A program made the position numbers and the translations under genes. The notes beneath the pieces were generated by a model, which was given only the letters and a program-made list of their open reading frames with translations, had not been told where the DNA came from and did no database searches. Shown here one piece after another: positions 28,719-52,564 of a stretch of 64,000 nucleotides of DNA (position 1 is the first letter of the stretch; each line of letters opens with the position of its first letter). This DNA comes from Ensifer sp. IC4062 (lineage in GTDB: Bacteria > Pseudomonadota > Alphaproteobacteria > Rhizobiales > Rhizobiaceae): positions 62,001 to 126,000 of the forward strand of contig NZ_JADYVD010000014.1 of NCBI RefSeq assembly GCF_020193575.1, in the 5' to 3' direction.

Positions 28719-30917
<2,199 letters not shown>

Positions 30918-36157: not shown

Positions 36158-36172
36158 GAGCCGGAGCGGCTC

Positions 36173-36268
36173 CCTGCAGCGTCCCGCGTCTCCGACGCAC
36201 CAGGGTCGCTGGAGCAATTTGAAAGGCCGCAAATCTTCTCCTCGGTCAAATCCAGGAGACATGCGGCA
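36173..36268. repeat. Rhizobial palindromic mosaic repeat, copy 4 (nuoH-nuoI junction)
   Basis: CTGCAGCGTCCCGCGTC, TCCGACGCACCAGG and GTCGCTGGAGCAATTTGAA correspond module by module to the CAGCG...CGCTG and GCAATTCAAA parts of copies 2 and 5, in inverted orientation, followed by a diverged AAATC module ending in GGAGACATGCGG. It fills most of the space between nuoH and nuoI. Confidence 0.7.
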
Positions 36269-36279
36269 GCGGAGCGGCA

Positions 36280-36846: not shown

Positions 36847-36890
36847 ACGCGCGTCGGTTGTCAATGCCGTAGCGACCGCACGCGCCTTAA

Positions 36891-36972
36891 ACCGCGGGCA
36901 ATTTTGGGATAAAATAGTGCAGCAATTCAAAGTGCTACAGCGACCTTGTTGCTTCTGACACTCGGCGCTGCA
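36891..36972. repeat. Rhizobial palindromic mosaic repeat, copy 5 (nuoI-CBS junction)
   Basis: GTGCAGCAATTCAAAGTGCT, then ACAGCGACCTTGTTGC and CGGCGCTGCAG, closely match copy 2 (31967). Its right end lies 15 bp upstream of the CBS start codon, so the ribosome-binding site CAGGAGG directly adjoins the repeat. Confidence 0.8.
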
Positions 36973-36987
36973 GGGCAGGAGGCGCAA

Positions 36988-37428
36988 ATGTTTGTTGGCG
37001 AAATCGTGAAGAACAAGGGCGTCGGGGTCATCGCGGTCACGCCCGCCCACACCATGGTGGAGGTGCTGCGGCTGTTTCGCGAAAGCAATATCGGCTTCGT
37101 GGTCGTCAGCCGCGCCCCTGGGGAATACCTGGGTACGCTTTCGGAACGGGATTGCTGCAACGCATTGGCGGAATACGGAGCCGACGCGGCGACGATGCGG
37201 GCTGCTGACATCATGAACCGCAGTGTCGCGACCTGTTCGACACAGGATTTGCTGCCCTACGTGATGGCGATGATGACCCAGCGGCGTACGCGCCATGTGC
37301 TCGTGCTCGAAGGCGATGCCGTTGTCGGCGTGGTCAGCATCGGCGACGTCGTCAAGCACAGGCTCGACGAGGCGTTGCGCACGGAGCAGGACCTGCACGA
37401 TTACATTTGTGGGACCCATTATCACTGA
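36988..37428 (+). CDS. CBS-pair domain protein in complex I cluster
   Basis: A 146-residue protein of two CBS domains (about 1-65 and 72-135): MFVGEIVKNKGVGVIAVTPA, VVSRAPGEYLGTLSERDC and AADIMNRSVATCSTQDLLPY, LVLEGDAVVGVVSIGDVVKH. CBS pairs bind adenine nucleotides and sense energy or redox state. The start at 36988 has AGGAGG 5 bp upstream. It follows nuoI on the same strand and converges on nuoG with 103 bp between. Placement inside a complex I cluster suggests a regulatory or accessory role for the enzyme, but this is inference; single CBS proteins also act on unrelated targets. Confidence 0.9.
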   Translation: MFVGEIVKNKGVGVIAVTPAHTMVEVLRLFRESNIGFVVVSRAPGEYLGTLSERDCCNALAEYGADAATMRAADIMNRSVATCSTQDLLPYVMAMMTQRRTRHVLVLEGDAVVGVVSIGDVVKHRLDEALRTEQDLHDYICGTHYH

Positions 37429-37531: not shown

Positions 37532-40096
37532 TCAAATCCGATCTTGCTCAAAGGCGGAACCAGTGGAAGCGGCGCTCTCGAAGGCCGGCGCGGCCTCGCG
37601 AACCTCCACCGGACATGGATATTCCCCCCGCCGCATCAGGCTGTTGAGGCGCAGCGCCTTGTAGTTCTCGGGCACAAACACGAGGCCCCTCGGGAAGCGC
37701 CGGTTGACCTTGAGCTTCGCCGTCAGTTCGCCCTGTGCAGATTGCACCACCACCTGATCCTGATCCGAAAGACCGAGCTCGGCGGCATCCTCAGCGCTTA
37801 TTTCGACATAGGGATCGTCCGCAACGGTATTCAGAATTTCCGAGTGTTCGGAAAGATAACCGTTGTGGAACAGCCCATTGCCGGTCACCAGCACGAGCCG
37901 GCCGGTTGGTTTCGGGGCAGGCGGCGCGGAGAAGAACGTGCTAGCTGCGGGCGTCGGCGCCGCGTTGGTGAAGGCACCGTCGGGGCCGAGCCCGTCCTGC
38001 GTCAGCCCCTCATAGGCCGGAAGAAGCTGGGCAATCTCGTCGAAAATCTCGCGTTGCGTCAACGGCTGCAGCGGTTCATTGCGGAGCGCCGCGACGAAGT
38101 CGAAGATCGCCAGATTGCTTCGCGCCTCGAAGGCTGGTTCGCGGAATTTGCGAACCGTCTGAAGCCGGCCCTCGTTGTTGGTAAAGGTACCGGCTTCCTC
38201 GCCGAAACCCGCCGCGGGCAAGACGACCTCCGCCAGACCTGCCGTCTCCGTGAGGAAGGTATCCTGCACGATGAGGAGGTCGATGGCGCCAAGCGCACGC
38301 GTCACGAAATCCCGGTCGGGATAGGCGATCAGAGGGTCGGTTCCGGCGACGTAAAGCGCGCCCATCCGCCCGTCGACGCAAAGCTCCAGCATCGCGTTGA
38401 GATCGGCGCCAGGTTCAGACGGAAGCTCGGCGCCCCAGGCCCGTTCGAGAGTTGCGCGCGCCCCATCGTCGGTGACTGCACTGAGCCCCGGCAGCGCCGC
38501 GGGCAGAACCCCCATGTCCCAGGCGCCCATCTGGTTGGAGCGGTCGAAGAGGAATTGCATCGCCGGGTTCTTGCCGAGCAGATGGAGAGCCTTGAGCAGG
38601 TTGTTGATCTGCTGCAGCGTCGCGCGCGCTTCGGATGATCTCAGGACGTCGATGCTGACAAGCACGGTGACACTTCCACTCTCCTCGAGTACCGAGGCCA
38701 GACGTTCCTGCGCGCCGCTGCTCGCTGCAGGCCAACCGGTTGTCGCGCCGATATTGGCGTCGCCCGGCAAGGTCTGACCGAGCGCGGCCACGATCGCCGC
38801 AAGGCTCGCCGCTTCTCCGCCCGGCCGCACGCGAACCACCGCACGGGCATCGGCGTCGAGACGCGATGGTCGCGCCGAGAGCATGAGCAGTCCGGTGTGT
38901 CGACGCCGCGCGGCATCCCTGAGCAGGTATTCGGTAACGGGGTTTTCTTCCGTCACGTTGCCGCCGATCACCAGCACACAGTCGCGACCGAGCACCTCTT
39001 CCAACGGTGCGCGGGCATGAAAACCCGCCACCAGCGGGCCGAGCGCGTCGTAGGGCGTAGACCAGCGCGACGAGCAGTCGATGTTGTTCGTGCGGAACAC
39101 GGTCCGCATCAGCTTCTGGAACTGATAGAGCACCTCGTTGGGCAGGCGCGCGGACGCAAGCCCGCCGGCGGCCTTGCTCTCGACAGCCGAGAGGCGCCGA
39201 CGCAGGTAGTCGCCAGCCTCCTCCCAGGAAACCGGAGTGAGCGCGCCGTCGCGACGGATCATCGGTCGCTTGATCCGATCTCGGCTCTCGATGAAGTCGA
39301 GCCCGAAGCGTCCGCGCACGCAGAGCGTTTCTCGGTTGACCCCGTGCTCCCAGTCCGAGCGGACGCGCATGAACTCGCCCTTGCGTGCTCCCACGGTCAG
39401 TTGGCAGCCGGTGCCGCAATGCGGGCAGATGGTGTCGGTCTCGTTGAGATCCCAGGGACGTGCCTTGTAGCGATACGGGAAACTCATCAGCGCGCCGACG
39501 GGGCAGACTTCGACGCAGTTGCCGCACTGGTCGCAGCTCGCAAGACTGCCCTCGAAACCGGTGACGGCGGTGTCCATACCCTTTTCGACCGTCCCCAAGG
39601 CGACCGCGCCGACGACCTCTTCACACATCCTGACGCAACGCTGGCACTGGATGCACCTGTTGACGTTCATGATGATGACCGGGCTCAGACGGATGTCCTT
39701 CGAGTGGAACACGCGCTTGGGATCGCGGAACTCGCTTTTGCGGGGACCGTAAGCCATCACCATGTCCTGCAGCTCGCACTCTCCGCCCTTGTCGCAGATC
39801 GGACAGTCGAGCGGGTGGTTGGCGAGCAGCATGTCGAGCATGGACGAGCGCGTTTCCTCGATCAGCGGCGTGTTCGTCCTGATCACCATCCCATCGGTGA
39901 CCGCGGTCGCGCAGGATGGCTGCAGTCGCCTGAGCCCTTCGATCTCCACCAGGCACATGCGGCAGGAGGCAAGTGCCGGCAGTCGCTTCCAGTAGCAGAA
40001 GGTCGGGATGTCGATGCCCAAACGCTCGGCCGCACTGAGCACCGTGGAGCCTGCCTCAACTTCCAGCGTTTGTCCGTCGATCGTGATACTAACCAT
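37532..40096 (-). CDS. nuoG: NADH-quinone oxidoreductase subunit G
   Basis: An 854-residue peripheral subunit with several iron-sulfur clusters. Ligands seen: [2Fe-2S] Cys34, 45, 48, 62; N5 His94, Cys98, 101, 107 (HPLDCPICDKGGEC); the next cluster Cys148, 151, 154 and, in a second group, Cys188, 191, 194 with Cys158 and Cys198 shared in the usual way; and the extra N7-type set Cys224, 227, 231, 259 (CPHCGTGC and LCVRGRF), known from E. coli and Thermus but missing from many NuoG proteins. A molybdopterin-oxidoreductase-like domain fills the rest. The start MVSITIDGQTLEVEAG is at 40096; an upstream extension lies in a repeat. Last gene of nuoABCDEFG. Confidence 0.95.
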   Translation of the reverse strand: MVSITIDGQTLEVEAGSTVLSAAERLGIDIPTFCYWKRLPALASCRMCLVEIEGLRRLQPSCATAVTDGMVIRTNTPLIEETRSSMLDMLLANHPLDCPICDKGGECELQDMVMAYGPRKSEFRDPKRVFHSKDIRLSPVIIMNVNRCIQCQRCVRMCEEVVGAVALGTVEKGMDTAVTGFEGSLASCDQCGNCVEVCPVGALMSFPYRYKARPWDLNETDTICPHCGTGCQLTVGARKGEFMRVRSDWEHGVNRETLCVRGRFGLDFIESRDRIKRPMIRRDGALTPVSWEEAGDYLRRRLSAVESKAAGGLASARLPNEVLYQFQKLMRTVFRTNNIDCSSRWSTPYDALGPLVAGFHARAPLEEVLGRDCVLVIGGNVTEENPVTEYLLRDAARRRHTGLLMLSARPSRLDADARAVVRVRPGGEAASLAAIVAALGQTLPGDANIGATTGWPAASSGAQERLASVLEESGSVTVLVSIDVLRSSEARATLQQINNLLKALHLLGKNPAMQFLFDRSNQMGAWDMGVLPAALPGLSAVTDDGARATLERAWGAELPSEPGADLNAMLELCVDGRMGALYVAGTDPLIAYPDRDFVTRALGAIDLLIVQDTFLTETAGLAEVVLPAAGFGEEAGTFTNNEGRLQTVRKFREPAFEARSNLAIFDFVAALRNEPLQPLTQREIFDEIAQLLPAYEGLTQDGLGPDGAFTNAAPTPAASTFFSAPPAPKPTGRLVLVTGNGLFHNGYLSEHSEILNTVADDPYVEISAEDAAELGLSDQDQVVVQSAQGELTAKLKVNRRFPRGLVFVPENYKALRLNSLMRRGEYPCPVEVREAAPAFESAASTGSAFEQDRI

Positions 40097-40132
40097 ATTT
40101 CCTCGCAGCCCTGCCCCCGCAGATCTTTCTTT

Positions 40133-40175
40133 CATGTCGTTGTCCCAAAATCGCTGAACACTTTTGGGCGACATG
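40133..40175. repeat. Palindromic element between nuoF and nuoG
   Basis: CATGTCG (40133-40139) and CCCAAAA (40144-40150) pair with TTTTGGG (40162-40168) and CGACATG (40169-40175), leaving a 4-base bulge and an 11-base loop. It occupies nearly the whole nuoF-nuoG gap, 3 bp after the nuoF stop, and is a diverged member of the mosaic repeat class. It could modulate the amount of nuoG message. Confidence 0.7.
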
Positions 40176-40177
40176 CA

Positions 40178-41443
40178 TTAGTGGAACGGGCATCTCCGCT
40201 CCTCGATATGGGCGACAAACTCCTCGCGGAAATGCTTGAGTGCTGCCCGCAATCCCATCGCCGCGCCGTCGCCCAAGGCACAGAACGTATTGCCGAAAAT
40301 GCCCTTGCAGAGCATGTCCAGTTGCTCCAGGTCGCCGGGCGCGCCTTCCCCGGCCTCGATCCGGCGCAGGACCTTGACGACCCAGTTCAAGCCCTCCCGG
40401 CATGGCGTGCACTTGCCGCAGGACTCATGGTGGAAGAATTCGATGATCCGGGTCGCGACCTTCACCATACAGGTGGTGTCGTCGACCACGATCACGCCGG
40501 CCGAACCGAGCATCGAACCGGCGGCGGCGAGCGAATCGAAATCCATCCCCACTTCCAGCCCGTGCTCCGGGATGACCGGCGCCGAAACTCCGCCCGGGAT
40601 AACCGCCTTGATCTTGCGTCCCGGCAGCGCGCCGCCCGCATGCTCCTCGACCAGTTCCTTGAGCGGTATACCCATCGGCAACTCGTAGAGGCCGGGTTTC
40701 TTCACCTGTCCGCTCACGCAATAGAGCTTCGGACCTGGGCTCTTGTCCGGACCGATGCCGCGAAACCAGGCAGCCCCCCGTGTCACGATATGCGGCACGC
40801 AGGCGAGCGTCTCGACATTGTTGATCACCGTCGGGCTGGCATAGAGCCCGGCCACCGCCGGAAACGGCGGTTTCAATCGCGGCTGCGCCCGCTTGCCCTC
40901 GAGCGACTCGAGCATCGCGGTCTCCTCGCCGCAGATATAGGCGCCGGCGCCGCAGTGGATGTGGACAGTGAAGTTAAAATCCGAGCCCAGAATGCCCTTT
41001 CCGAGGTATCCCTTTTCGTGAGCCTCCGCGATCGCCTGCTCCAGGCGACGGATAGCCGCCACGTATTCTCCGCGGATATAGACATAGGCGATTTCCGCCC
41101 CGATCGCGTAGCCGCTCACTGCCAGCCCCTCGATGAGCTGGTGGGGGTCGCGCTCCATGATGATGCGGTCCTTGAAGGTGCCGGGCTCTCCCTCGTCCGC
41201 GTTGCAGCACAGATATTTCGGCTTGTCGCCCCCTTTCGGCACGAAGCTCCACTTCATTCCGGTCGGGAACCCGGCACCGCCGCGACCGCGGAGGTTCGAT
41301 TGTTTCACGAGCTCTACGACCTCGCCAGGCGTGTATTCGCCGAGCACCTTCCGAAGCGCCTGATAGCCGCCGCCGGCCTCATAGGTTGAAAGCAGATGGC
41401 CGTTCGCGACCTCGACATTCTTGAGAAGAACCGGCTCGTACAT
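40178..41443 (-). CDS. nuoF: NADH-quinone oxidoreductase subunit F
   Basis: A 421-residue subunit that binds NADH, FMN and the N3 [4Fe-4S] cluster. Nucleotide-binding loops are RGRGGAGFPTGMKWSFVP and CCNADEGEPGTFKDR; FMN region AYICGEETAMLESLEG; cluster ligands in SCGKCTPCREG with a fourth Cys in MLCKGIFGNTFCALGD. Start MYEPVLLKNVEVAN at 41443 is 5 bp after the nuoE stop. Complete length for the family. Confidence 0.97.
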   Translation of the reverse strand: MYEPVLLKNVEVANGHLLSTYEAGGGYQALRKVLGEYTPGEVVELVKQSNLRGRGGAGFPTGMKWSFVPKGGDKPKYLCCNADEGEPGTFKDRIIMERDPHQLIEGLAVSGYAIGAEIAYVYIRGEYVAAIRRLEQAIAEAHEKGYLGKGILGSDFNFTVHIHCGAGAYICGEETAMLESLEGKRAQPRLKPPFPAVAGLYASPTVINNVETLACVPHIVTRGAAWFRGIGPDKSPGPKLYCVSGQVKKPGLYELPMGIPLKELVEEHAGGALPGRKIKAVIPGGVSAPVIPEHGLEVGMDFDSLAAAGSMLGSAGVIVVDDTTCMVKVATRIIEFFHHESCGKCTPCREGLNWVVKVLRRIEAGEGAPGDLEQLDMLCKGIFGNTFCALGDGAAMGLRAALKHFREEFVAHIEERRCPFH

Positions 41444-41447
41444 GGCG

Positions 41448-41960
41448 CTACTCTCCCGGCAACGGCTGAGCAACGTGCTCGACGCCCGTTACACGCCCCA
41501 CCGCGGCCCGAAGGCTATCCAGCAGCGCGTCCAGCCGCGCAACGTCAAGGTCGCCGTGGTAGTCGTCGCCGACCTGCATTACCGGAGCCATCTCGCAGGC
41601 ACCAAGGCACTCGACGGTGGAGAGCGTGAACAACCCGTCCGCCGTGCTGTCGCCCTTCCTGATACCGAGCACCGTTTCCAGGTGCGCCAGCAGCTTCTCG
41701 GAACCGCACAGCATGCAAGAAACATTGTCGCAGAGCTGCAGGTGGTACATGCCTACCGGCTCAGTGTGGAAGAGCGTGTAGAAGGTCGCTAGCTCGTAGA
41801 CCCAGATCCGCTCGACTCCGAGGATGTCGGCGACCTCCTCCAGCACGGGACCGGGCAGATGGCCATGTTCCTTCTGTGCGATCACAAGCGCGGGCATGAT
41901 CGCCGAGCGCTGGTCTGGATACGCCGCCGCTGCCTGTTCGATTTTTTCGCGCATGCTCAT
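41448..41960 (-). CDS. nuoE: NADH-quinone oxidoreductase subunit E
   Basis: A 170-residue thioredoxin-like subunit with the N1a [2Fe-2S] cluster: Cys77 and Cys82 (CDNVSC) and Cys118 and Cys122 (CLGAC). The N-terminal helical part (SAIMPALVIAQKEHGHLPGP, EEVADILGVERIWVYELATF) is typical. Start MSMREKIEQA at 41960, with a second ATG two codons later. It passes electrons with NuoF in the NADH-oxidising module; position between nuoD and nuoF is canonical. Confidence 0.96.
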   Translation of the reverse strand: MSMREKIEQAAAAYPDQRSAIMPALVIAQKEHGHLPGPVLEEVADILGVERIWVYELATFYTLFHTEPVGMYHLQLCDNVSCMLCGSEKLLAHLETVLGIRKGDSTADGLFTLSTVECLGACEMAPVMQVGDDYHGDLDVARLDALLDSLRAAVGRVTGVEHVAQPLPGE

Positions 41961-41974
41961 CGCGTCCAAATCTC

Positions 41975-43189
41975 CTACTTGTCCACCTCCGCCATGACAG
42001 GGTCGAGGCTGCCGAGCACGGCGATCATATCCGCCAGGTAGCGGGCGTTGGTGACCCCGAAGAGCGCCTGAAGATTGACGAACGATGGTGCCCGCACCTT
42101 CATGCGGAACGGTTTTGGCGACCCGTCGCTGATGATGTAGAAGCCGAGCTCGCCCTTTGGCGCCTCGATCGCTGAATAAACTTCGCCGGCCGGCACGTTG
42201 AAGCCATAGGCCGACAGATCGAAATGCTGGATCAGCGCCTCCATCGAACAGTGCACCCGTTCCTTGTCCAACGGGAAGGCGATCGTGGGCATGTCGATCT
42301 GGAACGGCCCTTCGGGCATCTGGGCGAGACATTGCTCGATGATGCGGATGCTTTCACGCATCTCGTCAACCCGGCACCGCCAGCGTGCGTAGCAATCGCC
42401 CTCGTCACGGGTAATGACCGTGAAATCGAGCCGATCGTAGATTTCGTAAGGCTCGTCACGCCGGATGTCCCAGTCGACACCGGAAGCACGCAGGTTCGGG
42501 CCGCTCAGGCCGAGGTCGATGGCGTCCTCGGCGGAGATCACGCCGATGCCTTCCGTGCGGTTGAGGAACACGCGGTTGTCTTCGAGCAATCGTTCATAAT
42601 CGCGAATCCGGCTCGGGAAGATGTCGCAGAACTCCCTGATCTTCGGAAGGAAGCCATCAGGTAGGTCTTCGCGCACCCCGCCGACCCTGCAGAAGGAGGT
42701 GTGCATGCGCGCGCCGGTGATCATTTCCAGGAGGTCCATGATCATCTCGCGTTCGCGCATGACGTAAAGCAGCGCAGTCATGGCGCCGAGATCCATCGGC
42801 AGCGCGCCGGTGATCAGGAGATGGCCGGAGATCCGCGCCAGTTCGGCCATCAGCACGCGGATATATTGCGCGCGGATCGGCGCTTCGATCCCGAGGAGCT
42901 TCTCCACCGCCAGCGCGAAGGCCAGGTTGTTCGAGGGCGGACAGAGATAATCGAGCCGGTCTGTCAGCGGAAAGATCTGAGTATAGGTGAAACTCTCCGC
43001 CAATTTTTCCGTGCCGCGGTGAAGATAGCCGACATGCGGATCCACGCGCTCGACATACTCGCCATCCAGCTCGAGCACGAGCCTCAGGACCCCATGGGTG
43101 CTGGGGTGTTGTGGACCGAGGTTGAGTAGCACTTCCCTGGTCTTGAGCGCTTCACCTTCCGGTCTCATCAGCTCGGTGACTTCGGTCAT
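41975..43189 (-). CDS. nuoD: NADH-quinone oxidoreductase subunit D
   Basis: A 404-residue subunit lining the quinone site, related to [NiFe] hydrogenase large subunits. Motifs are LNLGPQHPSTHGVLRLVLEL (with the quinone-contacting His), HVGYLHRGTEKLAE, FPLTDRLDYLCPPSNN, GARMHTSFCRVGGVREDLP and the end APSFVNLQALFGVTNARYLADM. The ATG is at 43189; the open frame continues upstream across a repeat but the homology starts at MTEVTELMRPEGEA. Separate from nuoC by 77 bp containing a palindrome. Confidence 0.97.
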   Translation of the reverse strand: MTEVTELMRPEGEALKTREVLLNLGPQHPSTHGVLRLVLELDGEYVERVDPHVGYLHRGTEKLAESFTYTQIFPLTDRLDYLCPPSNNLAFALAVEKLLGIEAPIRAQYIRVLMAELARISGHLLITGALPMDLGAMTALLYVMREREMIMDLLEMITGARMHTSFCRVGGVREDLPDGFLPKIREFCDIFPSRIRDYERLLEDNRVFLNRTEGIGVISAEDAIDLGLSGPNLRASGVDWDIRRDEPYEIYDRLDFTVITRDEGDCYARWRCRVDEMRESIRIIEQCLAQMPEGPFQIDMPTIAFPLDKERVHCSMEALIQHFDLSAYGFNVPAGEVYSAIEAPKGELGFYIISDGSPKPFRMKVRAPSFVNLQALFGVTNARYLADMIAVLGSLDPVMAEVDK

Positions 43190-43229
43190 CTCAGCTCTCC
43201 GACGTCGAACGGCCTCCTTCAAATCAGTC

Positions 43230-43268
43230 TGAGCGGTCTGCGGGCGGAAACCCGCCTCATCCCGCTCT
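43230..43268. repeat. Palindromic element of the AGAGCGG type, copy B (nuoC-nuoD junction)
   Basis: GAGCGGTCTGCGGGCGG-AAA-CCCGCCTCATCCCGCTC is an imperfect inverted repeat with the same words as copy A at 34288. It covers the end of nuoC and the beginning of the space before nuoD, and would form a stem in the nuoC-nuoD message. Confidence 0.7.
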
Positions 43269-43803
43269 ACGGAATATCCCTGGTGGCAAGGTCGGGCTGC
43301 GTCGGCGGCGGGCCTTCGGCGCCAAACGGGTTCAGCTTGTCCTTGTAACCCCGGAGCGGAAAATCCTTGCGCTGCGGGAAACCCTCGAAGCCTTCCCACA
43401 TGTAGATCCGGCGCAGGTCGGGATGCCCGGTAAACCGGATGCCGTACATGTCCCATGCCTCGCGCTCGTGCCAGTTGGCGGTGCGCCAAACGCCCGTGAC
43501 CGAGGGAACCTCGGGGGGATCGCCAAGCCGGCACTTGATGCGGATGCGCCATTTGTTAGGCAGCGAATAGAGGTGGTAGACCGCCTCGTAACGCGGCGTT
43601 TCTGGATAATGGTCAACCCCGCAGATGTCCGAGAGGAAATTGAATTTGAGCGCCGGATCGTCTTTCAGGAACCAGCAGAACTCGACGATCTTCTCCGGCG
43701 GGACCGCAAAGACTTCGATGCCGTGCGCGGTGCCTAGATCTTCGATTGCTTCTCCAAAGCGCTCCAAGATCGGAGCGCGGTTGAGAGACGGGTCCACACT
43801 CAT
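43267..43803 (-). CDS. nuoC: NADH-quinone oxidoreductase subunit C
   Basis: A 178-residue peripheral subunit, separate from NuoD as in most alphaproteobacteria. Conserved segments are [60 protein letters not shown] and [20 protein letters not shown] followed by FPLRGY. Its start overlaps the nuoB end by 4 bp. The C-terminus with [14 protein letters not shown] is slightly different from the chromosomal type of rhizobia, which has about 200 residues. Confidence 0.95.
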
Positions 43804-44303
43804 GACGCTACAACCCGATCGAGAGGCGTCCCGGTCAACGCGCGGGACTTCTTGATCTTCTCCTGCAACAGCAAGAACCCGTGCATCAACGCCTCGGGCC
43901 GCGGCGGACAGCCGGGCACATGCACGTCGACCGGCACGAAAGTTTCCGACCCCTGCACCACGGCGTAGGTGTTGTAGACCCCGCCCGAAATGGCGCAGGT
44001 GCCCATGGCGATCACCCAGCGCGGCTCCGGCATCTGGTCGTAGAGCCGCCGGACGACCGGCGCGAATTTCCGCGTCACGGTTCCGGCGATGATCATCACG
44101 TCGGACTGGCGCGGCGACGGGCGGAACACCACGCCGAACCGATCGAGGTCATAGCGCGCACAACCGGCCGAGATCATCTCGATGGCGCAGCAGGCAATAC
44201 CGAAGGTCTCTGGCCACAGTGCCGACCTTCGGCTCCAGCTGATCACGCTGTCGGCCGTCGTGAACAGGACACTGTCGCGGATCGCGTTTCCTACTCCTCC
44301 CAT
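43800..44303 (-). CDS. nuoB: NADH-quinone oxidoreductase subunit B
   Basis: A 167-residue subunit carrying cluster N2, the last electron carrier before quinone. Ligands are the adjacent Cys38-Cys39 ([10 protein letters not shown]), Cys103 ([12 protein letters not shown]) and Cys132 ([14 protein letters not shown]). The conserved [20 protein letters not shown] is present. It overlaps nuoA by 13 bp and nuoC by 4 bp. Confidence 0.97.
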
Positions 44304-44656
44304 TCAAGCGCTCCCTTCAGCCAAGCGTAGGCGAAGCCTACGAGAAGCAGCACGATGAAAACGAACATCTCGACAAAACCGACCAGCCCGATTTCTTTCA
44401 GGACGACGGCCCAAGGAAAGAGGAACATCGTCTCGACGTCGAAGACGACCAGCAGGATCGCAAGGATATAGAACTGCACCCGGAAGCGACCTCCCGCGGC
44501 CTCGCCCGCAGGGTCCATGCCGCATTCATAGGGCATGTTCTTTGCCGGATAAGGGTTGGACGGGCGCAGCAGCGAGGACACAAAAAGCGTCGCCCCTGCC
44601 ACCAGAACAACTCCAGCGACCATGAGAAGAACCGGCAGAAATTCCATTGCCGTCAT
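44291..44656 (-). CDS. nuoA: NADH-quinone oxidoreductase subunit A
   Basis: A 121-residue membrane subunit with three helices and the conserved loop [20 protein letters not shown] followed by [20 protein letters not shown]. It is the first gene of nuoABCDEFG on this strand and overlaps nuoB. The start [12 protein letters not shown] lacks an obvious ribosome-binding site; the second ATG at 44647 is possible. Confidence 0.96.
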
Positions 44657-44882: not shown

Positions 44883-46325
44883 CTACCCTCCAGACGCCGA
44901 CTGTTGTGCAAGCCCAAGGAACCACGCCGGAAATAGTCCGATGCCGATGGTGCCAAGGGCGGTGAAGGCAAGCGTGGCGCGCACCATGGGCGTCAGCGCG
45001 GGCTCGAACACCCTCTCGGGCTCGCGCATGTAGATCACCATAACGATGCGGATGTAGAAGTAGGCGGCGACGGCGCTCAAGAGCACGGCGATCACCGCCA
45101 GCATGACGAAACCTCGCTCGACGAGAGCGACAAGCACATAGAACTTGGCGAAGAAGCCGGCGGTCGGCGGAATGCCTGCGAGCGAGAACAGATAGATGAG
45201 CATCAGAAGCGCGAGCCCCGGATGCGACTTGGCGAAACCCGCGTAGTCGTTGATGACCTCGCCCGAGAAATCGCCGTTCCGCATCATGATGACGGCGCCG
45301 AAAATGCCGAGGTTCATGAAGGAGTAGATCAGCATGTAGAGCATCACGCTGGCGATTCCGTCCTGACCGCCGGCCACCACGCCGAAGATGGCGAAGCCGG
45401 CATGTGCTATGCTGGAATAGGCAAGCAGCCGCTTGAAATTATCCTGCACCAGCGCCACGAAGCTGCCGAGCGCCATGGTCACCACCGCGATGACCGCGAC
45501 GATGATCCAGACGTCCGAGGCGGCGACCAGAGGGTTGAGGAAGACCCTGAGGATCACGGCGAAACCCGCCGCCTTCGGCCCCACCGACATGAAGGCGGTG
45601 ATAGTCGTCGGCGCGCCTTCGTAGACGTCCGGCAGCCACATATGGAACGGCACCGCTCCGACTTTGAACACCAGCCCCGCGACGATGAAGACCACCGCCA
45701 GCAGCAATCCGGGATCGAGCGGATCGCCGGTTACCGCCTGAGCCATTGCATCGAGTTGCGTCGTGCCGGTCAGCCCGTAAACCAGCGAGACACCGTACAG
45801 GAAAATCCCGGTCGAGACCGCGCCAAGGATCACGTATTTCAACGCGGCTTCGTTCGAGCGCCGCTCGCGTCGCATGAAGCCGGTCAGCACATAGGTGCAA
45901 AGCACCATCAGTTCGAGGCCGACATAGATCGACAGAAGATCCGTCGCCGAGGCCATGATCATCATGCCGAAAAGCGCAAAGAGCAGCAGGACGTAATATT
46001 CGCTGCTGCTCCCGATCCCTTCGATATCGGCATATTTTCGCGACAAGAGGAATGTCAGGATCGTGGCCAGATAGAACACGAGCTTGAAGAAGACTGCGAA
46101 GCGGTCGGCGATGAACATGCCGGAATAGGCCGGCCGCACCTCACTCCCCAGCATGAGCGTCGCCAGGGCGGCGATCAGGACGATCGCGATGGAAGCCGAG
46201 ACGAGGAGATGTTCCTGCCCCTTGCGCAGAAGCTGCCCCAGGATCAAGAGGATGCAGGCCCCGGTGACCACCACGATCTCGGGCAGGCTCGCGATGATCG
46301 ACTGGAGAAGCGCGGCGGCGGTCAT
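44883..46325 (-). CDS. nuoN: NADH-quinone oxidoreductase subunit N
   Basis: A 480-residue proton-pumping membrane subunit of the antiporter-like family with about 14 helices. Charged intramembrane residues characteristic of the family are in IYVGLELMVLCTYVLTG (Glu) and ITAFMSVGPKAAGFAVILRV (Lys), together with LLAYSSIAHAGFAIFG. The ending ALGTIGIGLFPAWFLGLAQQ is typical of NuoN. It overlaps nuoM by 4 bp and closes the nuoJ-N unit. Confidence 0.96.
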   Translation of the reverse strand: MTAAALLQSIIASLPEIVVVTGACILLILGQLLRKGQEHLLVSASIAIVLIAALATLMLGSEVRPAYSGMFIADRFAVFFKLVFYLATILTFLLSRKYADIEGIGSSSEYYVLLLFALFGMMIMASATDLLSIYVGLELMVLCTYVLTGFMRRERRSNEAALKYVILGAVSTGIFLYGVSLVYGLTGTTQLDAMAQAVTGDPLDPGLLLAVVFIVAGLVFKVGAVPFHMWLPDVYEGAPTTITAFMSVGPKAAGFAVILRVFLNPLVAASDVWIIVAVIAVVTMALGSFVALVQDNFKRLLAYSSIAHAGFAIFGVVAGGQDGIASVMLYMLIYSFMNLGIFGAVIMMRNGDFSGEVINDYAGFAKSHPGLALLMLIYLFSLAGIPPTAGFFAKFYVLVALVERGFVMLAVIAVLLSAVAAYFYIRIVMVIYMREPERVFEPALTPMVRATLAFTALGTIGIGLFPAWFLGLAQQSASGG

Positions 46326-47797
46326 TGGCCGCCCTCCGTGCCATGCACCTCAGTCAGCAAATGGCTAACAGAGGCGTCGATGATGGCGAGAAAGGGCTTT
46401 GGATAGAGCCCGACCCAGAGCACGAAGGCGGCGAGCGGCAGGATCGCAACCATTTCGCGGGCGTTCACGTCACGGATCTTGAACCGGCCGCCGACGCTCG
46501 GCGGACCAAGCGCGACCTTCCGATACATGCCGAGCAGATAGGCGGCACCTAGCGTTGCGCCCAGAACGGCGGCCGCACCGACGGCGAAGTTGGCCGCAAA
46601 CCCACCCGACAGCACCAGCAACTCACCCACGAACGAATTCGTTCCCGGCAGCGCCATTGACGACAACGTAAACAGCGCAAGAAACACCGTATAGACCGGG
46701 GCCACCTTCATCAGCCCGCCATAGTCGGCGATGCTGCGGGTATGGGTCCGCTCGTAGATCAGGCCGACGAACAGGAACAGCGCGCCCGTCGTCACGCCGT
46801 GATTGAACATCTGCAGGATGCCGCCTTCGAGCCCGCGGAGGTTCAGGGCAAAAATTCCCATCGTCACGAAGCCCATGTGGCTGATGCTGGAATAGGCGAC
46901 CAGCTTCTTCAGGTCGTCCTGCGCGAGCGCAAGCAGCCCGCCATAGACGATGGCGAGCGCCGACAGCGCCAGCATCAGCGGCGAAAAATACAGCGACGCC
47001 TCAGGCAGCATCGGCAGTGAGAAGCGCAGGAATCCATAGGCGCCCATCTTCAGGAGCACGCCGGCGAGAATGATGCTGCCCGCCGTCGGTGCCTGCACAT
47101 GGGCGTCCGGGAGCCATGTGTGGACCGGGACCATCGGCACTTTGACGGCGAAGGCGATCAGGAAGGCGAAGAACAGCCAGGACTGGACCTGAAACGGCAG
47201 GTCCAATGCCGTCAAGGCGAGAATGTCGAAGGTCTCGCCGCCGTGGAAATAAAGCGCGATGACGCCGACGAGGAACAGGAGGCTGCCTGCCAGCGTATAT
47301 AGAAAGAATTTGAACGCTGCATAGACCCTACCCTCGCCACCCCAGACACCGATGATCAGATACATGGGGATGAGCATCGCTTCCCAGAAGACATAGAACA
47401 GGAAGAGGTCGAGGCTTAAGAACACCCCGAGCATCAGCGCCTGCATGGCGAGCAGACTTGCCATGAACGCCGTTACCTTGCGCTCGATCGCGACCCACGA
47501 AGCGAGCACCGAGACCGTGCTGAGCAGTGCGGTCAGGAACACGAAGAGCGCGCTGATCCCGTCAACGCCGAGCGCATAGGTGATCCCAAGCGCGGGCACC
47601 CACGGCACCTTCTCGGTGAACTGCATCTCGTGGGTCGTTGTGTCGAAGCCGGCCAGCAGCACGATTGAGAGAGCGAGGTCGAGGACCGTGACAACAAGGG
47701 CTGTCCACCGCGCCGCGTCGTCGCTGCGGAGAAACATCAGAACCGCCGCCCCGGCGGCCGGCGTGAATATGATGAGGCTGAGCAGCGGAAATCCCAT
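46322..47797 (-). CDS. nuoM: NADH-quinone oxidoreductase subunit M
   Basis: A 491-residue proton-pumping subunit. NuoM features: the N-terminal MGFPLLSLIIFTPAAGAAVL, YALGVDGISALFVFLTALLS, FYVFWEAMLIPMYLIIGVWG with the key Glu, FHTWLPDAHVQAPTAGSIIL-like helix 7 and LAGVLLKMGAYGFLRFSLPM with Lys, and LVAYSSISHMGFVTMGIFAL. The open frame continues far upstream but the ATG at 47797 fits the family and lies 8 bp after the preceding gene's stop. Confidence 0.97.
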   Translation of the reverse strand: MGFPLLSLIIFTPAAGAAVLMFLRSDDAARWTALVVTVLDLALSIVLLAGFDTTTHEMQFTEKVPWVPALGITYALGVDGISALFVFLTALLSTVSVLASWVAIERKVTAFMASLLAMQALMLGVFLSLDLFLFYVFWEAMLIPMYLIIGVWGGEGRVYAAFKFFLYTLAGSLLFLVGVIALYFHGGETFDILALTALDLPFQVQSWLFFAFLIAFAVKVPMVPVHTWLPDAHVQAPTAGSIILAGVLLKMGAYGFLRFSLPMLPEASLYFSPLMLALSALAIVYGGLLALAQDDLKKLVAYSSISHMGFVTMGIFALNLRGLEGGILQMFNHGVTTGALFLFVGLIYERTHTRSIADYGGLMKVAPVYTVFLALFTLSSMALPGTNSFVGELLVLSGGFAANFAVGAAAVLGATLGAAYLLGMYRKVALGPPSVGGRFKIRDVNAREMVAILPLAAFVLWVGLYPKPFLAIIDASVSHLLTEVHGTEGGQ

Positions 47798-47805
47798 CGC
47801 GCCCC

Positions 47806-49566
47806 CTACCGCCACACCACGGCGAAAACGACGATAGCCGCGATCACACCGGCGATCATCGCCAGCGCGTAGTGGGTGACGACGCCGGTCTGCAACCGCC
47901 TCAGCGCCCCGCCGCCGGTAAGGATCGAACGGGCGACACCGTTTACGACACCATCCACACCATTGAGGTCGAGGCGCAGCCCCGCCCGCGCCGAACCGTG
48001 CAGGAGGGGCAGCACGGTAGTCTCCGACACGTCGCTCACCGCCTTCTCGTAGCGCGCCAGCGGCTTTTCGGCGAGCCACATGAAGCCTCGCGCGCCCTTG
48101 CGATAGAACCAGTCGGTGTCGAGGCTGATCGTGTTCTCGGGATCGAGCGCCCGCAGGAAAATGACGAAGCCCAGTGCAGTGAACATCAGGATACCGAGGC
48201 TCTCGGTGACATGGGCGCCCGTATAGGGCTCAAAGTCCACCGGGTAGGGCAGGAGCGCATAAAGCGGTCCTGGGAATATGCCGATCGCAATGCAGAGTGC
48301 GGCCGCCATGCCCATCGCAACTAGCATGTTGCGGGGCGGCTCCCGCGCCTCCAGCTTTCGGTCCGTGCCGAAGAACATGTAATAGGGCAGTTTGAGCCCG
48401 GTATGCAGGAACGTCCCCGACGATGCCATCGTCAACGCCAGCATCACCAGCGCCCGGTGATCCTGGCCCGCGGCCGCCACCACCATCGACTTGGTGACGA
48501 AGCCCGAGAAGAACGGAAACGCCGAGATCGCGAAGGCGCCGACCATGTAGAGCGCCACGGTGAGCGGCATGGTCCTGTAGAGCCCGCCAAGCTCGGTGAG
48601 CTTGCGCCGCCCGGTGACATAGATCACCGCGCCGGCCCCCATGAACAGGAGCGCCTTGTAGAGGATATGGGCGAAGGCATGGCTGGTGGCTCCGTTCACC
48701 GCCATCTCTGTCCCGATACCGACGCCTGCCACCATGTAGCCCACCTGGCTGACGATGTGATAGGCGAGCAGCCGCCGACAGTCGTTCTCGAGCACCGCGT
48801 AGACGACGCCGTAAAGCGCCATCGCCGCGCCGAGCCATACCAGAAGCTCAGTCCCGGGAAAGGCTCGCGCCAGCACATAGACGGCGGTCTTGGTGGTAAA
48901 CGCGCTCATGAACACCGCCCCGGTGACGGTCGCCTCCGGATAGGCGTCGGTGAGCCAGGCATTGAGCGGCGGTACGGCGGCATTGAGCAGGAACCCGGCA
49001 AGGATAAGGTAGGCGCCGACGCCGATCGCCCCCTCCATCGGCCCGAAGAGTAGCGATCCGGTGGCAGCCCCGTGGAGCAGGATGCCGCCGAGCAGGGCGA
49101 CGCCGCCGGTAACATGGACCATGAGGTAGCGGAATGCGGCGCCTGTCGCCTTCTCGCCTCCCTGGGCAAAGACCAAGTAGGCCGAGGCGAACGCCATACC
49201 CTCCCAGAAGAGATACAGCGTCAGGTAGTCGCCGGCGAACACCACGCCGAGGGCGCTGCCGACATAGACGAACGCCGCCACATGTTGGCCTGGGCGCGTC
49301 AGATGCAGCGCGTAGATCATGCCGATCAGTGCCATGATGGTGAAAACCGTGGCAAAGACGATGCTGAGCCTGTCGACCTTCGCGATCAGGATTTCCTGCC
49401 CGATGAACGTCGCCGCGCCGTAAGTCCCGGGCTCCATGGTGAGCACGGCGAGGAACGCCAGCAGCGGGACCAGCACCAGATAGGCCTTGCGGATTGTCTC
49501 CTTCAGGAAAGGGATCGGCACGGCGCCGAGAATGAACAGGAGGGCGGGATGGACAAAGTCAGTCAT
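47806..49566 (-). CDS. nuoL: NuoL-like antiporter subunit of complex I (MrpD/NuoL family)
   Basis: A 586-residue membrane protein of the NuoL/MrpA/MrpD family. The core has about 14 helices with the Glu (LYLFWEGMAFASAYLVFAQG) and Lys (MSAFTTKTAVYVLARAFPG) of the pumping channel and LLAYHIVSQVGYMVAGVGIG. After the core, a roughly 90-residue extension (RYEKAVSDVSETTVLPLLHG, DGVVNGVARSI, LRRLQTGVVTHYALAMIAGV) ends in a last helix; this resembles the lateral helix and terminal helix of NuoL. The body itself, with DTDWFYRKGARGF, is closer to MrpD-like proteins, so the gene name is by role and position. Starts 8 bp inside the end of the 84-residue gene. Confidence 0.85.
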   Translation of the reverse strand: MTDFVHPALLFILGAVPIPFLKETIRKAYLVLVPLLAFLAVLTMEPGTYGAATFIGQEILIAKVDRLSIVFATVFTIMALIGMIYALHLTRPGQHVAAFVYVGSALGVVFAGDYLTLYLFWEGMAFASAYLVFAQGGEKATGAAFRYLMVHVTGGVALLGGILLHGAATGSLLFGPMEGAIGVGAYLILAGFLLNAAVPPLNAWLTDAYPEATVTGAVFMSAFTTKTAVYVLARAFPGTELLVWLGAAMALYGVVYAVLENDCRRLLAYHIVSQVGYMVAGVGIGTEMAVNGATSHAFAHILYKALLFMGAGAVIYVTGRRKLTELGGLYRTMPLTVALYMVGAFAISAFPFFSGFVTKSMVVAAAGQDHRALVMLALTMASSGTFLHTGLKLPYYMFFGTDRKLEAREPPRNMLVAMGMAAALCIAIGIFPGPLYALLPYPVDFEPYTGAHVTESLGILMFTALGFVIFLRALDPENTISLDTDWFYRKGARGFMWLAEKPLARYEKAVSDVSETTVLPLLHGSARAGLRLDLNGVDGVVNGVARSILTGGGALRRLQTGVVTHYALAMIAGVIAAIVVFAVVWR

Positions 49567-49813
49567 AATAGTCCTCGCGCCGCATGAGCCCGCCCTGATG
49601 GCCGAGAAACTTGGAAACGAAGATCAAGATCACACACGAGCCGAAGCCGTAGACGGCCGACCAGCCGGGCAGGCGCTCCCACAGATATTCGGCATGTTCG
49701 CGGGAGACCAGAAAATCGGCGACGACGATCAGAACGAGCACCAGATAGAACAGCCGGCGGCGACGTAACGCATGTCTCTCGTCGCCAAAGAAATCGACGA
49801 TGCGCTCGATCAT
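49559..49813 (-). CDS. Small two-helix membrane protein in complex I cluster
   Basis: An 84-residue protein of unknown function: MIERIVDFFGDERHALRRRR, a hydrophobic helix (about 20-38, LFYLVLVLIVVADFLVS), a polar middle (REHAEYLWERLPGWSAVYGF), a second helix (about 56-70, GSCVILIFVSKFLG) and a tail GLMRREDYYD. Its start overlaps the end of the preceding antiporter-like gene by 4 bp and its end overlaps nuoL by 8 bp, so it is translationally coupled to both. I do not recognise it as a standard Nuo or Mrp subunit; the overlaps make it likely to be a component or assembly partner of this complex. Confidence 0.8.
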   Translation of the reverse strand: MIERIVDFFGDERHALRRRRLFYLVLVLIVVADFLVSREHAEYLWERLPGWSAVYGFGSCVILIFVSKFLGHQGGLMRREDYYD

Positions 49814-51273
49814 CTGACCACTCCTTCCGCCAAAGCGAGGAAATAGCCGGGAAACACCCCCATCAACACCGACAGGATGGCGGTCGCAACGAGCGGGATC
49901 GTCACCAGCGGAATCTCGCGAACGGCCGGCGGGCTCTCCCGTGCCTCCGCGCCGAAAAAGGCGACATAGCTGACCGGCAGGAAATAGGCGGCATTCAGCA
50001 CCGAGCTCGCCAGGAGAACGATCAGGAACGCCACCTCCCCTGCCTCGACCGAGCCTAGCGTCAGATACCACTTGCTGACGAAGCCCGCGGTCGGCGGCAC
50101 CCCGATCATGCTGAGCGAGGCGACGAAGAACGCCCCCATCGTCCAGGGCAGCCGGCGGCCGATGCCGGCCATGTCGCTGATATTGCGCTTGCCGGACGCG
50201 CAATAGATCGACCCGGCGCAAAAGAAGAGCGTGATCTTGGAGAAGGCGTGCGCCGCGATATGGATGATGCCGCCGACCATCGCGACCGGCGACAATAGAA
50301 CCGCGCCCAGCACCACGTAGGAAAGCTGGCTGACCGTCGAATAGGCGAGCCGCGCCTTCAGGTCGTCCCGCGTCAGCGCGTAGACCGACGCCATCAGGAT
50401 CGTGAACGAGACCAGATAGGCCGTGGCGATGCCCAGTCCCAACCCGCCGACCAGCCCCGCGCCGAAGACGTGGAACACCACCCTCAGCACACAGAAGACG
50501 CCCATCTTGACCACGGCCACTGCATGCAGGAGCGCGCTGACCGGTGTCGGCGCCACCATCGCGGCGGGCAGCCAGGCGTGCATGGGCATCACCGCGGCCT
50601 TGGCAAAGCCGAACAGATAGCAGAAATAGATGACCGTCAGCAGCGCCGCCGGAGCGTTGGCGCCAGCAAGCAGTCCCCCGGGCACGAAGTCGAGCGATCC
50701 CGCTATGGCATAGGTCAGCGCCAGCGCGGCAAGGAGCACGCTTTTCGATGCGCCCATCAGATAGACGAGATATTTGCGGCTGCCCTTCCACCCCTCTTCG
50801 TCCTCGTGGTGATAGACGAGCGGATAGGTGACGAGGCTCAGCACCTCGTAGAAGATCACCAGCGTGAAGAGATTGGCGGCAAAGGCGCCCCCGACGGCCG
50901 GCGCAAGGCTCAACGCAAAGCAGGCGAAGAACCGGGTCTGTGCGTGCTCGTTCAAATGCCGCATGTAGCCGATGGAATAGACCGCCGCCACGATCCACAA
51001 CAGCGACGAGACGGTGGCAAACACCATGCCGAGCGCATCGACCCGGAAAGCGAAATCGATGCCCGGCAGGATCTCGAAGAGACGCAGTTCGACAGTCCCG
51101 CCGGCCATTACTGTGGGCGCCATCGAGGCAACGATTGTGAACATGGCGACCGCGGCCAGCGGGGAGACGAGATCGCGGAGTTTTTCGCGCTTGTTCAACA
51201 GGAGAACTGAAAGGGCCGCCAGCCCGGCAATGGCGACGGCAAGCAGCGGCCGGATCGAGATCACCGGTTCCAA
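49810..51273 (-). CDS. Additional antiporter-like (MrpD-type) subunit of complex I
   Basis: A 487-residue membrane protein of the MrpD/NuoM/NuoL family lacking a C-terminal extension. The channel residues are visible in LVIFYEVLSLVTYPLVYHHE (Glu) and PTPVSALLHAVAVVKMGVFC (Lys), with LAYSTVSQLSYVVLGAVLL and HAFSKITLFFCAGSIYCASG. It sits between nuoK and the 84-residue gene, where a canonical cluster has only nuoL. With NuoL, NuoM and NuoN it brings the number of antiporter-like subunits to four. Enlarged complexes with a fourth pumping subunit have been described in other bacteria; that this protein is part of the complex is inferred from the operon. Confidence 0.9.
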   Translation of the reverse strand: MEPVISIRPLLAVAIAGLAALSVLLLNKREKLRDLVSPLAAVAMFTIVASMAPTVMAGGTVELRLFEILPGIDFAFRVDALGMVFATVSSLLWIVAAVYSIGYMRHLNEHAQTRFFACFALSLAPAVGGAFAANLFTLVIFYEVLSLVTYPLVYHHEDEEGWKGSRKYLVYLMGASKSVLLAALALTYAIAGSLDFVPGGLLAGANAPAALLTVIYFCYLFGFAKAAVMPMHAWLPAAMVAPTPVSALLHAVAVVKMGVFCVLRVVFHVFGAGLVGGLGLGIATAYLVSFTILMASVYALTRDDLKARLAYSTVSQLSYVVLGAVLLSPVAMVGGIIHIAAHAFSKITLFFCAGSIYCASGKRNISDMAGIGRRLPWTMGAFFVASLSMIGVPPTAGFVSKWYLTLGSVEAGEVAFLIVLLASSVLNAAYFLPVSYVAFFGAEARESPPAVREIPLVTIPLVATAILSVLMGVFPGYFLALAEGVVR

Positions 51274-51277
51274 GCCG

Positions 51278-51580
51278 CTATCCTTTCATCACGGTCACGT
51301 CGTCGACCTTGAGAGTGGCCTTGTTCCTCACGAGGGCGACCAGGATGCCAAGGGCGACGGCTACCTCTGCAGCGGTGGTTGCAATGACGAAGATCGCGAA
51401 GATCTGTCCGCGGAAATCAGCGTAGTAGCGCCCGAAAGCGATGAAATTGATGTTGACCGAGTTGAGCAACAACTCCAACGACATCAGCACGACCAGAATA
51501 TTGCGCCTGAGCAGCACGCCCGCCGCCCCGATCACGAACAGGACCACTCCGAGCAAAATGTACCATGAGAGGGGAACCAT
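51278..51580 (-). CDS. nuoK: NADH-quinone oxidoreductase subunit K
   Basis: A 100-residue three-helix membrane subunit: [40 protein letters not shown] with the conserved intramembrane Glu, and [20 protein letters not shown] with the second Glu. The start codon shares one base with the nuoJ stop (TAATG). The C-terminal tail [15 protein letters not shown] is normal. Confidence 0.97.
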
Positions 51581-52080
51581 TATCCCGGCTCCTTCCGCGC
51601 CAATATGATGGCGCCGACAAGGGCGGCGAGCAGGATGACGGAGGCGATTTCGAACGGCAGGAGATAGTCGGCGAAAAGCGCCGTGCTGAGCGCTCTGACC
51701 TGATCGCCGCCCTGGACGGCGACAGGCTCCGTGGCCGAAAAGCGGTCGCTCCAGAGCACCAGCACAAGCATCTCGACCCCGAGCAGAACGAGCAACACCA
51801 GAGCTGGCAGATTGCCGCCCGGCAAGAACCGCTGCAAAACCGCTTCGCGCACGTCGATCATCATGATCACGAAGAGGAACAGGACCATGATCGCGCCGAC
51901 ATAGACGAAGATCTGGATAACCGCGAGCAACGGCGCCCCGAGCAGGACGAAGATCGCCGAGACCTGCAGGAAACAAGCCATCAGTGCCAATGCGCTATGA
52001 ACGGGATTGCGCGCCAGGACCACAGTCAGGGCCGCAATCACGGACACGGCAGCGAACAGAAGAAAGAACCCCTGACCCAT
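51580..52080 (-). CDS. nuoJ: NADH-quinone oxidoreductase subunit J
   Basis: A 166-residue membrane subunit with five helices and the conserved segments [40 protein letters not shown] and [13 protein letters not shown]. It is the first gene of the nuoJK-X-Y-LMN unit; a possible sigma-70 promoter is 85 bp upstream of its start. Confidence 0.97.
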
Positions 52081-52564
52081 TGACGCCGACCCCTCCCACG
52101 CGAACTGTCACTCGGCGCGAGTGCGGCCGGACTGCGATAGCTCCGCACTTCGGGTGCATTCACAAATTGTGCCCTAGTATCGGATTTTTCACAAGATTAT
52201 TGACGTCGGCCGAGCAAAACCACGGCAGTCCGGATGTGTGGCATAGGCACCGTTCCTCGGGCGCTCGACCCCCACCAATCGGTGCGCCGCCGATGGACTA
52301 TACTTTTTTCGAATGCCGCCCTCCGAATGCCGGATGGCATAGGTCGATAGGCGGCTCGTAATTTCTGCCATAGAGCTCCAATAGAGTATTGTAGCACCCG
52401 CCAACGACGTAGCAGTTGTTATTCTGTCGTTGGCAACCTCTTGCCCTGCCAATGCGTTCTGCGCGACAAGCAAGGCGATCCGAACCGAAGCAAGAATGTC
52501 GGGAGGGGTCGCGTCGCGCGTCTCAAGGCGGCGTTGGCGCAGTCGTTTGGAAAAGAGTTCACGC
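52081..52564. other. Intergenic region between nuoJ and the penicillin-binding protein gene
   Basis: 484 bp between divergent genes. A promoter-like pair for nuoJ is at 52166-52194. Otherwise I see only a short direct repeat of CCGAATGCC (52311-52336 region) and no gene; the in-frame extension of the penicillin-binding protein into 52430-52564 is unlikely to be translated because it lacks conserved residues. Confidence 0.45.
52166..52194 (-). promoter_or_regulatory. Putative sigma-70 promoter of nuoJ unit
   Basis: On the minus strand TTGTGA (52194-52189) and CACAAT (52171-52166) are separated by exactly 17 bp, each matching 4 or more positions of TTGACA and TATAAT. It is about 85 bp upstream of nuoJ. 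Confidence 0.35.

Follow-up and report, generated by a model that had tools for sequence, protein, structure and literature searches.

Gene content and conservation of the operon

The stretch of DNA analysed here, which we call the window, comprises 64,000 nucleotides of Ensifer sp. IC4062 (positions 62,001 to 126,000 of contig NZ_JADYVD010000014.1, which is contig C55 in our analysis), and it contains a complex I (nuo) operon in which the place of nuoL is taken by three genes that we designate X, y and L′. The genome has a size of 7.1 Mb, and nifH is present in it with a score above the curated cut-off. The operon runs along the minus strand from 52080 to 37532, in the order nuoJ, nuoK, X, y, L′, nuoM, nuoN and then nuoA to nuoG. 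The identity of nuoJ (51580-52080) rests on Pfam PF00499 (133 bits) and TIGR/NCBIfam NuoJ models, and that of nuoK (51278-51580) on PF00420 (97.5 bits) and NuoK models. X (49810-51273) encodes an antiporter-like protein of 487 amino acids (aa) without a lateral helix, which matches NF006236 at 836 bits (cut-off 663). L′ (47806-49566) encodes an antiporter-like protein of 586 aa with a C-terminal lateral-helix stretch, and it matches NF009310 at 791.5 bits (cut-off 564). Between these genes lies y (49559-49813), which encodes 84 aa with two predicted helices, and which overlaps X by 4 nucleotides and L′ by 8. The next two genes are nuoM (46322-47797; TIGR01972, 635 bits) and nuoN (44883-46325; TIGR01770, 517 bits), whose products fall in the NuoM and NuoN groups of the tree described below. 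The open reading frames (ORFs) nuoA, nuoB, nuoC, nuoD, nuoE, nuoF and nuoG (37532-44656) take their names from an annotated Pararhizobium operon. On the plus strand, divergent from this run, positions 35171-37428 hold nuoH (35171-36157), nuoI (36280-36846) and a CBS-domain gene adjoining nuoI (36946-37428), each an ORF with an annotated Pararhizobium homologue. A CBS-domain gene likewise stands beside nuoI and nuoH in the Pararhizobium operon and on pSymA, a symbiotic megaplasmid.

A preliminary description, made from the sequence alone, gave the coordinates correctly, and NuoJ, NuoK, X, L′, NuoM and NuoN are all encoded on the minus strand. It proposed that two genes replace nuoL; both are confirmed, and there is no nuoL in the operon, but y was overlooked. 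The genome's sole match to TIGR01974 (NuoL) is on contig C98. Antiporter-domain matches (PF00361) number 11 in the genome, with four in the operon, three on C98, two on C86 and two on C84. The C98 trio is L, M and N of an ordinary complex I, while from length and alignment we read the C86 and C84 pairs as MrpA/MrpD. Genes for MrpE, F, G, B and C are absent from the operon.

With one NuoM and no NuoL, the operon is not that of a 2M complex I, which has a second NuoM and keeps NuoL, nor that of an ordinary 14-subunit complex I, whose operon includes NuoL. Instead, two MrpD-like genes replace nuoL in a complete nuo operon, which is the gene content of the rhizobial "green complex I". The passages available from PMC9040806 and PMC7415380 describe this enzyme as having two MrpD-like subunits instead of NuoL, with four antiporters, so that novelty of the gene set, which the preliminary description had thought possible, is not supported. 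Our operon resembles it in gene content, in its rhizobial host and in being a second complex I beside the ordinary one. The review among these sources (PMC7415380), in the part sampled, counts about 70 Alphaproteobacteria, mostly Rhizobiaceae, that hold both complex I operons.

A scan of genome contigs gave 168 relatives of L′, and we examined the loci of the best 80 of these 168 together with pSymA, i.e., 81 loci, 13 of which were rechecked by tblastn. The block nuoJ-nuoK-X-y-L′-nuoM-nuoN is complete and in this order in 79 of the 81, and the two remaining contigs (L023 and L050) begin within the operon. For this reason our counts below are of 80 green X and 82 green L′. The preliminary description's suggestion to look for the same gene order in other rhizobia is thus answered positively in all 79 loci that cover the block, y included. 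In eight of the 81 loci the mechanically called ORFs were over-long, and tblastn recovered the usual J, K, X order in all eight. The genes nuoA to nuoG follow nuoN in 75 loci, while one contig stops after N and another after C. Most loci are, to judge by their titles, from rhizobia, and Defluviimonas salinarum also bears the block. A diverged alphaproteobacterial genome outside the window's taxonomic order (locus L217) has the genes from K to G, with an L′ that is 72% identical to ours. L′ has matches in 269 records of a plasmid collection, 99 of which show 80-95% identity; pSymA of S. meliloti 1021 is one of them. The operon is found on symbiotic megaplasmids such as pSymA, and it also occurs in chromosome records (L031 and L079).

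Relatives of X, y and L′ in stand-alone operons

In a phylum sample of 398 genomes, L′ was found above the cut-off in 21, all of which also have X at E ≤1e-120. We fetched 20 regions from this sample, leaving out two of the 21 genomes (G220 and G309). Three regions, all from the window's own family, hold complex I operons. Of the remaining 17, one is a 3.2-kb contig, and none contains a complex I gene of the window besides antiporter-type matches. The order E-F-G-B-C-Z-X-y-L′, in which the first five letters denote Mrp genes and Z an additional D-type subunit, could be named with Pfam in two loci (in one of which MrpB was unscanned) and by eye in others among those listed. It is also annotated, as E-F-G-B-C-Z-X-L′, on two haloarchaeal plasmids that lack y. 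In a class sample, L′ was above the cut-off in 74 of 337 genomes, and four further regions had X and L′ with no complex I gene. A separate observation concerns locus L141, from a genome of 1.3 Mb whose match is below the cut-off, where X, a y-like frame and L′ stand in a listed region without Mrp or complex I genes.

Such Mrp-type operons with three D-type subunits share X, y and L′ with our operon, in the same order. They differ in having no adjoining complex I genes and an extra Z, and their L′ has no NuoL-type tail and a shorter stretch after the start of the lateral helix (see below). The preliminary description had named the presence of X without complex I in related genomes as evidence against an enlarged complex I. 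The outcome is divided: X-y-L′ homologues do occur in stand-alone Mrp-type operons, but every rhizobial copy that we fetched is beside complex I genes. Mrp-type antiporter operons are the likely source of X-y-L′.

We built a tree of 86 sequences over 448 columns using FastTree, in which the midpoint root is arbitrary. Green and stand-alone L′ form one clade (support 1.0), as do green and stand-alone X (1.0). Z groups with MrpD (0.954), NuoL with MrpA (0.984), the window's M with NuoM (1.0) and its N with NuoN (1.0), whereas the deeper joins are weak. X is outside the MrpD group, whereas Z is inside it. We conclude from these placements that neither X nor L′ is NuoL and that X does not belong to MrpD sensu stricto. 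The earlier classification of X as MrpD-type must therefore give way to a clade of its own. As to the tree that had been suggested as a check on an unrelated antiporter, X and L′ each cluster with homologues from stand-alone Mrp operons, and neither clusters with ordinary NuoL.

The small gene y has a median ratio of nonsynonymous to synonymous substitution rates of 0.23 (231 pairs, 22 genes). A profile of y has 24 matches at E ≤1.5e-5 in the 398-genome phylum sample, and they are confined to the 21 L′-bearing genomes. By position, these matches lie in the gap between X and L′ or, in one fragmented genome, at contig ends adjoining X or L′. The window's y has no match in Pfam or NCBIfam, and other members have weak Pfam matches only, the best with an E-value of 0.05. 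An AlphaFold2 (AF2) model of y has two long helices but is weak, with a predicted local distance difference test (pLDDT) score of 65.7. In the assembled complex, y is probably located at the contact between X and L′. Eight weaker profile matches (E 2e-5 to 0.0098) lie within frames of 214-332 aa, in genomes without L′ above the cut-off (G298, G023, G356, G372, G216, G330, G290 and G009). We also considered that y might be fused to X in haloarchaea, on whose plasmids no gene is annotated between X and L′. This idea was rejected, as the two longer X proteins of haloarchaea have a His-rich loop and no fused y.

The C-terminal part of L′ and its channel residues

To compare lateral helices, we measured the span from the conserved D-x-x-Y at the start of the helix to a Tyr at the last transmembrane helix (TM). 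Among 30 NuoL proteins of Rhizobiales, this span is 58 residues in 27 and 57 in two, and the anchor is missing in one. Among green L′ it is 82 residues in 80 of 82, and the other two lack the Tyr. The preliminary description was right that L′, at 586 residues, is not longer than an ordinary NuoL, but total length masks the longer stretch because the core of L′ is shorter. The associated idea that nothing is lengthened, leaving the holding of an extra unit unexplained, is thus ruled out by the anchor span, not by total length. Measured from the helix-start anchor to the C-terminus, all 82 green L′ have 102 residues, and E. coli NuoL has 72. The corresponding values are 72-80 in 14 of 18 stand-alone L′ (four are without the anchor) and 77-90 in 29 of the 30 Rhizobiales NuoL, where the longer ones extend past the last TM. 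Of 27 L′ of stand-alone type from the class sample, 19 have 75-80 residues, two have a far-off motif and six have none.

The two parts of this region resemble different proteins. We made one profile from the last 72 residues of the 30 NuoL, and another from TM15 and the helix start of 14 stand-alone L′. The NuoL-tail profile matches all 82 green L′ at 21.5-35.4 bits, while the 18 stand-alone L′ score at most 2.2 bits; E. coli NuoL itself scores only 2.0. The helix-start profile also matches all 82 green L′, at 27.5-42.9 bits, and the 30 NuoL score at most 1.6. In the window's L′, the match to the helix-start profile covers residues 448-517 (48016-48225 on the minus strand, 37.8 bits), which are thus of the stand-alone, Mrp-module type, and the match to the NuoL tail covers residues 535-584 (47815-47964 on the minus strand, 31.8 bits), corresponding to the end of the lateral helix and the last TM of ordinary NuoL.

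As a held-out control we used 28 L′ from the class sample that had contributed to neither profile. In 27 of them the helix-start profile gave 48-101 bits and the NuoL tail no more than 0.8 bits. The remaining one, from the diverged complex I operon L217, scored 40.0 and 32.6 bits, respectively. In sum, a NuoL-type tail is present in 82 of 82 green L′ and in none of 45 L′ of stand-alone type (18 plus 27). When the window's tail alone was compared with the PDB, it matched NuoL-type chains of a cyanobacterium, a mycobacterium and Paracoccus (E 0.001-0.004), and the best Foldseek matches of a model of the whole L′ were MrpA and NuoL/NdhF chains. L′ thus looks chimeric, with a core and helix start from an Mrp module and a NuoL-type tail, and these comparisons put the join near residues 517-535. 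One class-sample L′ (L220) has a stand-alone-type tail and is, at 61% identity over 492 residues, the closest of the 27 to the window's L′.

Residues of the proton channels were read by alignment to E. coli NuoL, with the numbering checked against the K-12 sequence. Every green X (80 of 80) and every green L′ (82 of 82) carries the Glu of TM5 (Glu144). At the position of Lys229 in TM7, all 80 green X have Lys, as do the operon's M and N, unlike L′, in which all 82 green sequences have Asn (Asn195 in the window, codon 48982-48984 on the minus strand). Stand-alone L′ vary at this position, with 13 Lys and five Asn among 18. Lys is found at the position of Lys399 in TM12 in every aligned X and L′, and L′ also keeps a Lys in TM8 and a Lys at the place of K342. 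All 80 green X therefore have the full set of TM5 Glu, TM7 Lys and TM12 Lys or Glu, and L′ lacks the combination of TM5 Glu with TM7 Lys. The preliminary description had assigned the membrane Glu and Lys to four proteins; this is accurate for X and for the Glu of L′, but not for the TM7 lysine of L′. Finally, a His at the TM8 position His254 is present in 98 of 98 X, as in ordinary NuoL, and in no aligned L′. According to passages of PMC4938563, this residue is specific to NuoL and MrpA.

Interpretation of the operon

We interpret the operon as encoding a green complex I with a four-module membrane arm, in which an X-y-L′ cassette from an Mrp-type operon replaces nuoL and L′ is the outermost module, and we assign this interpretation a probability of roughly 0.75. 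X, y and L′ would have been transferred together from a stand-alone operon for an Mrp-type cation/proton antiporter (Z-X-y-L′), displacing nuoL. In complex I, the C-terminus of L′ is of NuoL type, and the part linking TM15 to TM16 exceeds its NuoL counterpart by about 24 residues, which may allow an outermost L′ to clamp the arm even with one module more. The most likely order in the membrane arm would be NuoN - NuoM - X - L′. The NuoL-type tail, the longer stretch and the fixed gene block together speak for X and L′ being part of the complex, with L′ in the outermost position. From the sequences, we infer assembly into one complex, the order of subunits, the helical path of the extension, the place of y and the direction of transfer. 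A complex I with an additional pump, as the preliminary description proposed, is accordingly still the best reading of the four antiporter genes, with the difference that a part of it is lengthened.

Several observations weigh against this interpretation. X-y-L′ homologues presumably work without complex I, and two haloarchaeal L′ have no match to the stand-alone helix-start profile. In an AF2 model of L′, the tail mostly has pLDDT <50, although the core is fair (mean pLDDT 72.5), and we did not rely on the helices drawn at 484-531, 534-551 and 563-585. In three loci (L037, L044 and L090) a gap of 3.3-5.9 kb separates nuoN from nuoA, and in L039 there is no nuoA within about 7 kb past nuoN. 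With nuoA-G apart from nuoN in four of 81 loci, the linkage of the J-N block to A-G has exceptions. Lastly, given the TM7 Asn in L′, it is not assured that there are four equal pumps.

This last point leads to a different view of L′, namely that it is a structural cap and carrier of the helix rather than a pump, so that the enzyme has four modules and yet, because L′ has no TM7 lysine, does not exceed an ordinary complex I in the number of protons moved. We regard this as quite possible, if short of an even chance. The Asn is invariant in green L′, and passages of PMC9802314 describe the Glu-Lys pair as a feature that all antiporter-like subunits share. In addition, PMC4938563 cites NuoL K229A as lowering pumping. 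However, the same passages report that this mutant was like unmutated NuoL in a Bacillus complementation test. L′ also retains its other channel residues (the TM5 Glu and the lysines of TM8, the K342 place and TM12), and Asn is found in five of 18 stand-alone L′ as well.

It might instead be supposed that X, y and L′ make up a cation/proton antiporter of their own, which shares no more than a transcript with the complex I genes, while the second complex I borrows the NuoL of the other operon. The genome does have one other NuoL, and the same three genes do occur in Mrp-type operons elsewhere. Nevertheless, we consider this very improbable, given that the operon has none of the MrpE, F, G, B and C genes, that the J-N block is unbroken in all 79 loci, and that, among the L′ tested, the NuoL-type tail and longer stretch are found only in those linked to complex I. 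Somewhat less improbable, but still unlikely, is an origin without fusion, in which L′ had a NuoL-like tail from the start and the stand-alone forms lost it. All of these proteins are homologous, the root of the tree is arbitrary, and even E. coli NuoL has a low score with the tail profile. This scenario has to contend with the absence of the tail from all 45 stand-alone-type L′ and with the fact that the TM15 and helix start of green L′ are common to stand-alone L′, not NuoL.

Related enzymes provide a context for the lengthened stretch, as far as the passages of PMC9040806 describe them. Complex_I_3 of Ca. Manganitrophaceae has two MrpD subunits that are said to be closest to the rhizobial ones, but it differs in having a second NuoM, i.e., five modules, and a helix insert of 26 residues relative to the rhizobial protein. 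The 2M complex I of Nitrospira (Chadwick et al. 2018, cited in PMC9040806) likewise has a fourth pump-like module and a lengthened lateral helix, and its NuoL insert is similar in length to that of 26 residues. It differs in gaining its additional module as a second NuoM while retaining NuoL, whereas the window's operon has no NuoL. With 58 residues in NuoL, 82 in green L′ and 26 more in the five-module enzyme, the stretch seems to grow stepwise as modules are added. Some insertions placed in the E. coli lateral helix, those between L and M, reduced pumping, and others did not (passages of PMC3274701).

A more speculative extension of the green complex I interpretation, against which the odds lie somewhat, is that of a domain-swap enzyme. 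In this proposal the role of NuoL would be split between X, with the NuoL/MrpA-type TM8 signature, and L′, with the Mrp core and a NuoL-type tail that is longer by roughly one module; y would be an extra subunit, the lateral helix would be a ruler of module count, and one more proton would be moved per NADH.

As far as the available passages go, what is new beyond the published green complex I is the chimeric tail of L′, its 24 additional residues relative to NuoL, y and the TM7 Asn. In the literature, which was sampled in part and with the 2016 original outside our coverage, we came across no reference to the chimeric tail, to y or to the TM7 change. Similarly, the passages from PMC12361115, PMC7419157, PMC5419562 and PMC8879329 contain nothing on X, y or L′.

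As to regulation, FixK-type and sigma-54-type patterns occur in the window in near the number expected by chance, and there are none at 52081-52440, before nuoJ. Elsewhere in the window, two genes recognized by eye, one for a LysR-type regulator (27536-28447, minus strand) and one for a catalase-peroxidase (28737-30917, plus strand), are divergent and resemble an oxyR-katG pair.

A bacterium with both an ordinary and a four-module enzyme would allow the two to be compared within a single strain with respect to proton stoichiometry, the length of the lateral helix and the requirement for the lysine of TM7. This bears on the open question of how distant pump modules in complex I are coupled to a single redox event. 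According to the sampled part of the review PMC7415380, the green operon is raised in symbiosis or nodules in strains that possess it. Given this report and its location on megaplasmids, the operon may be relevant to the energy balance of nitrogen fixation.

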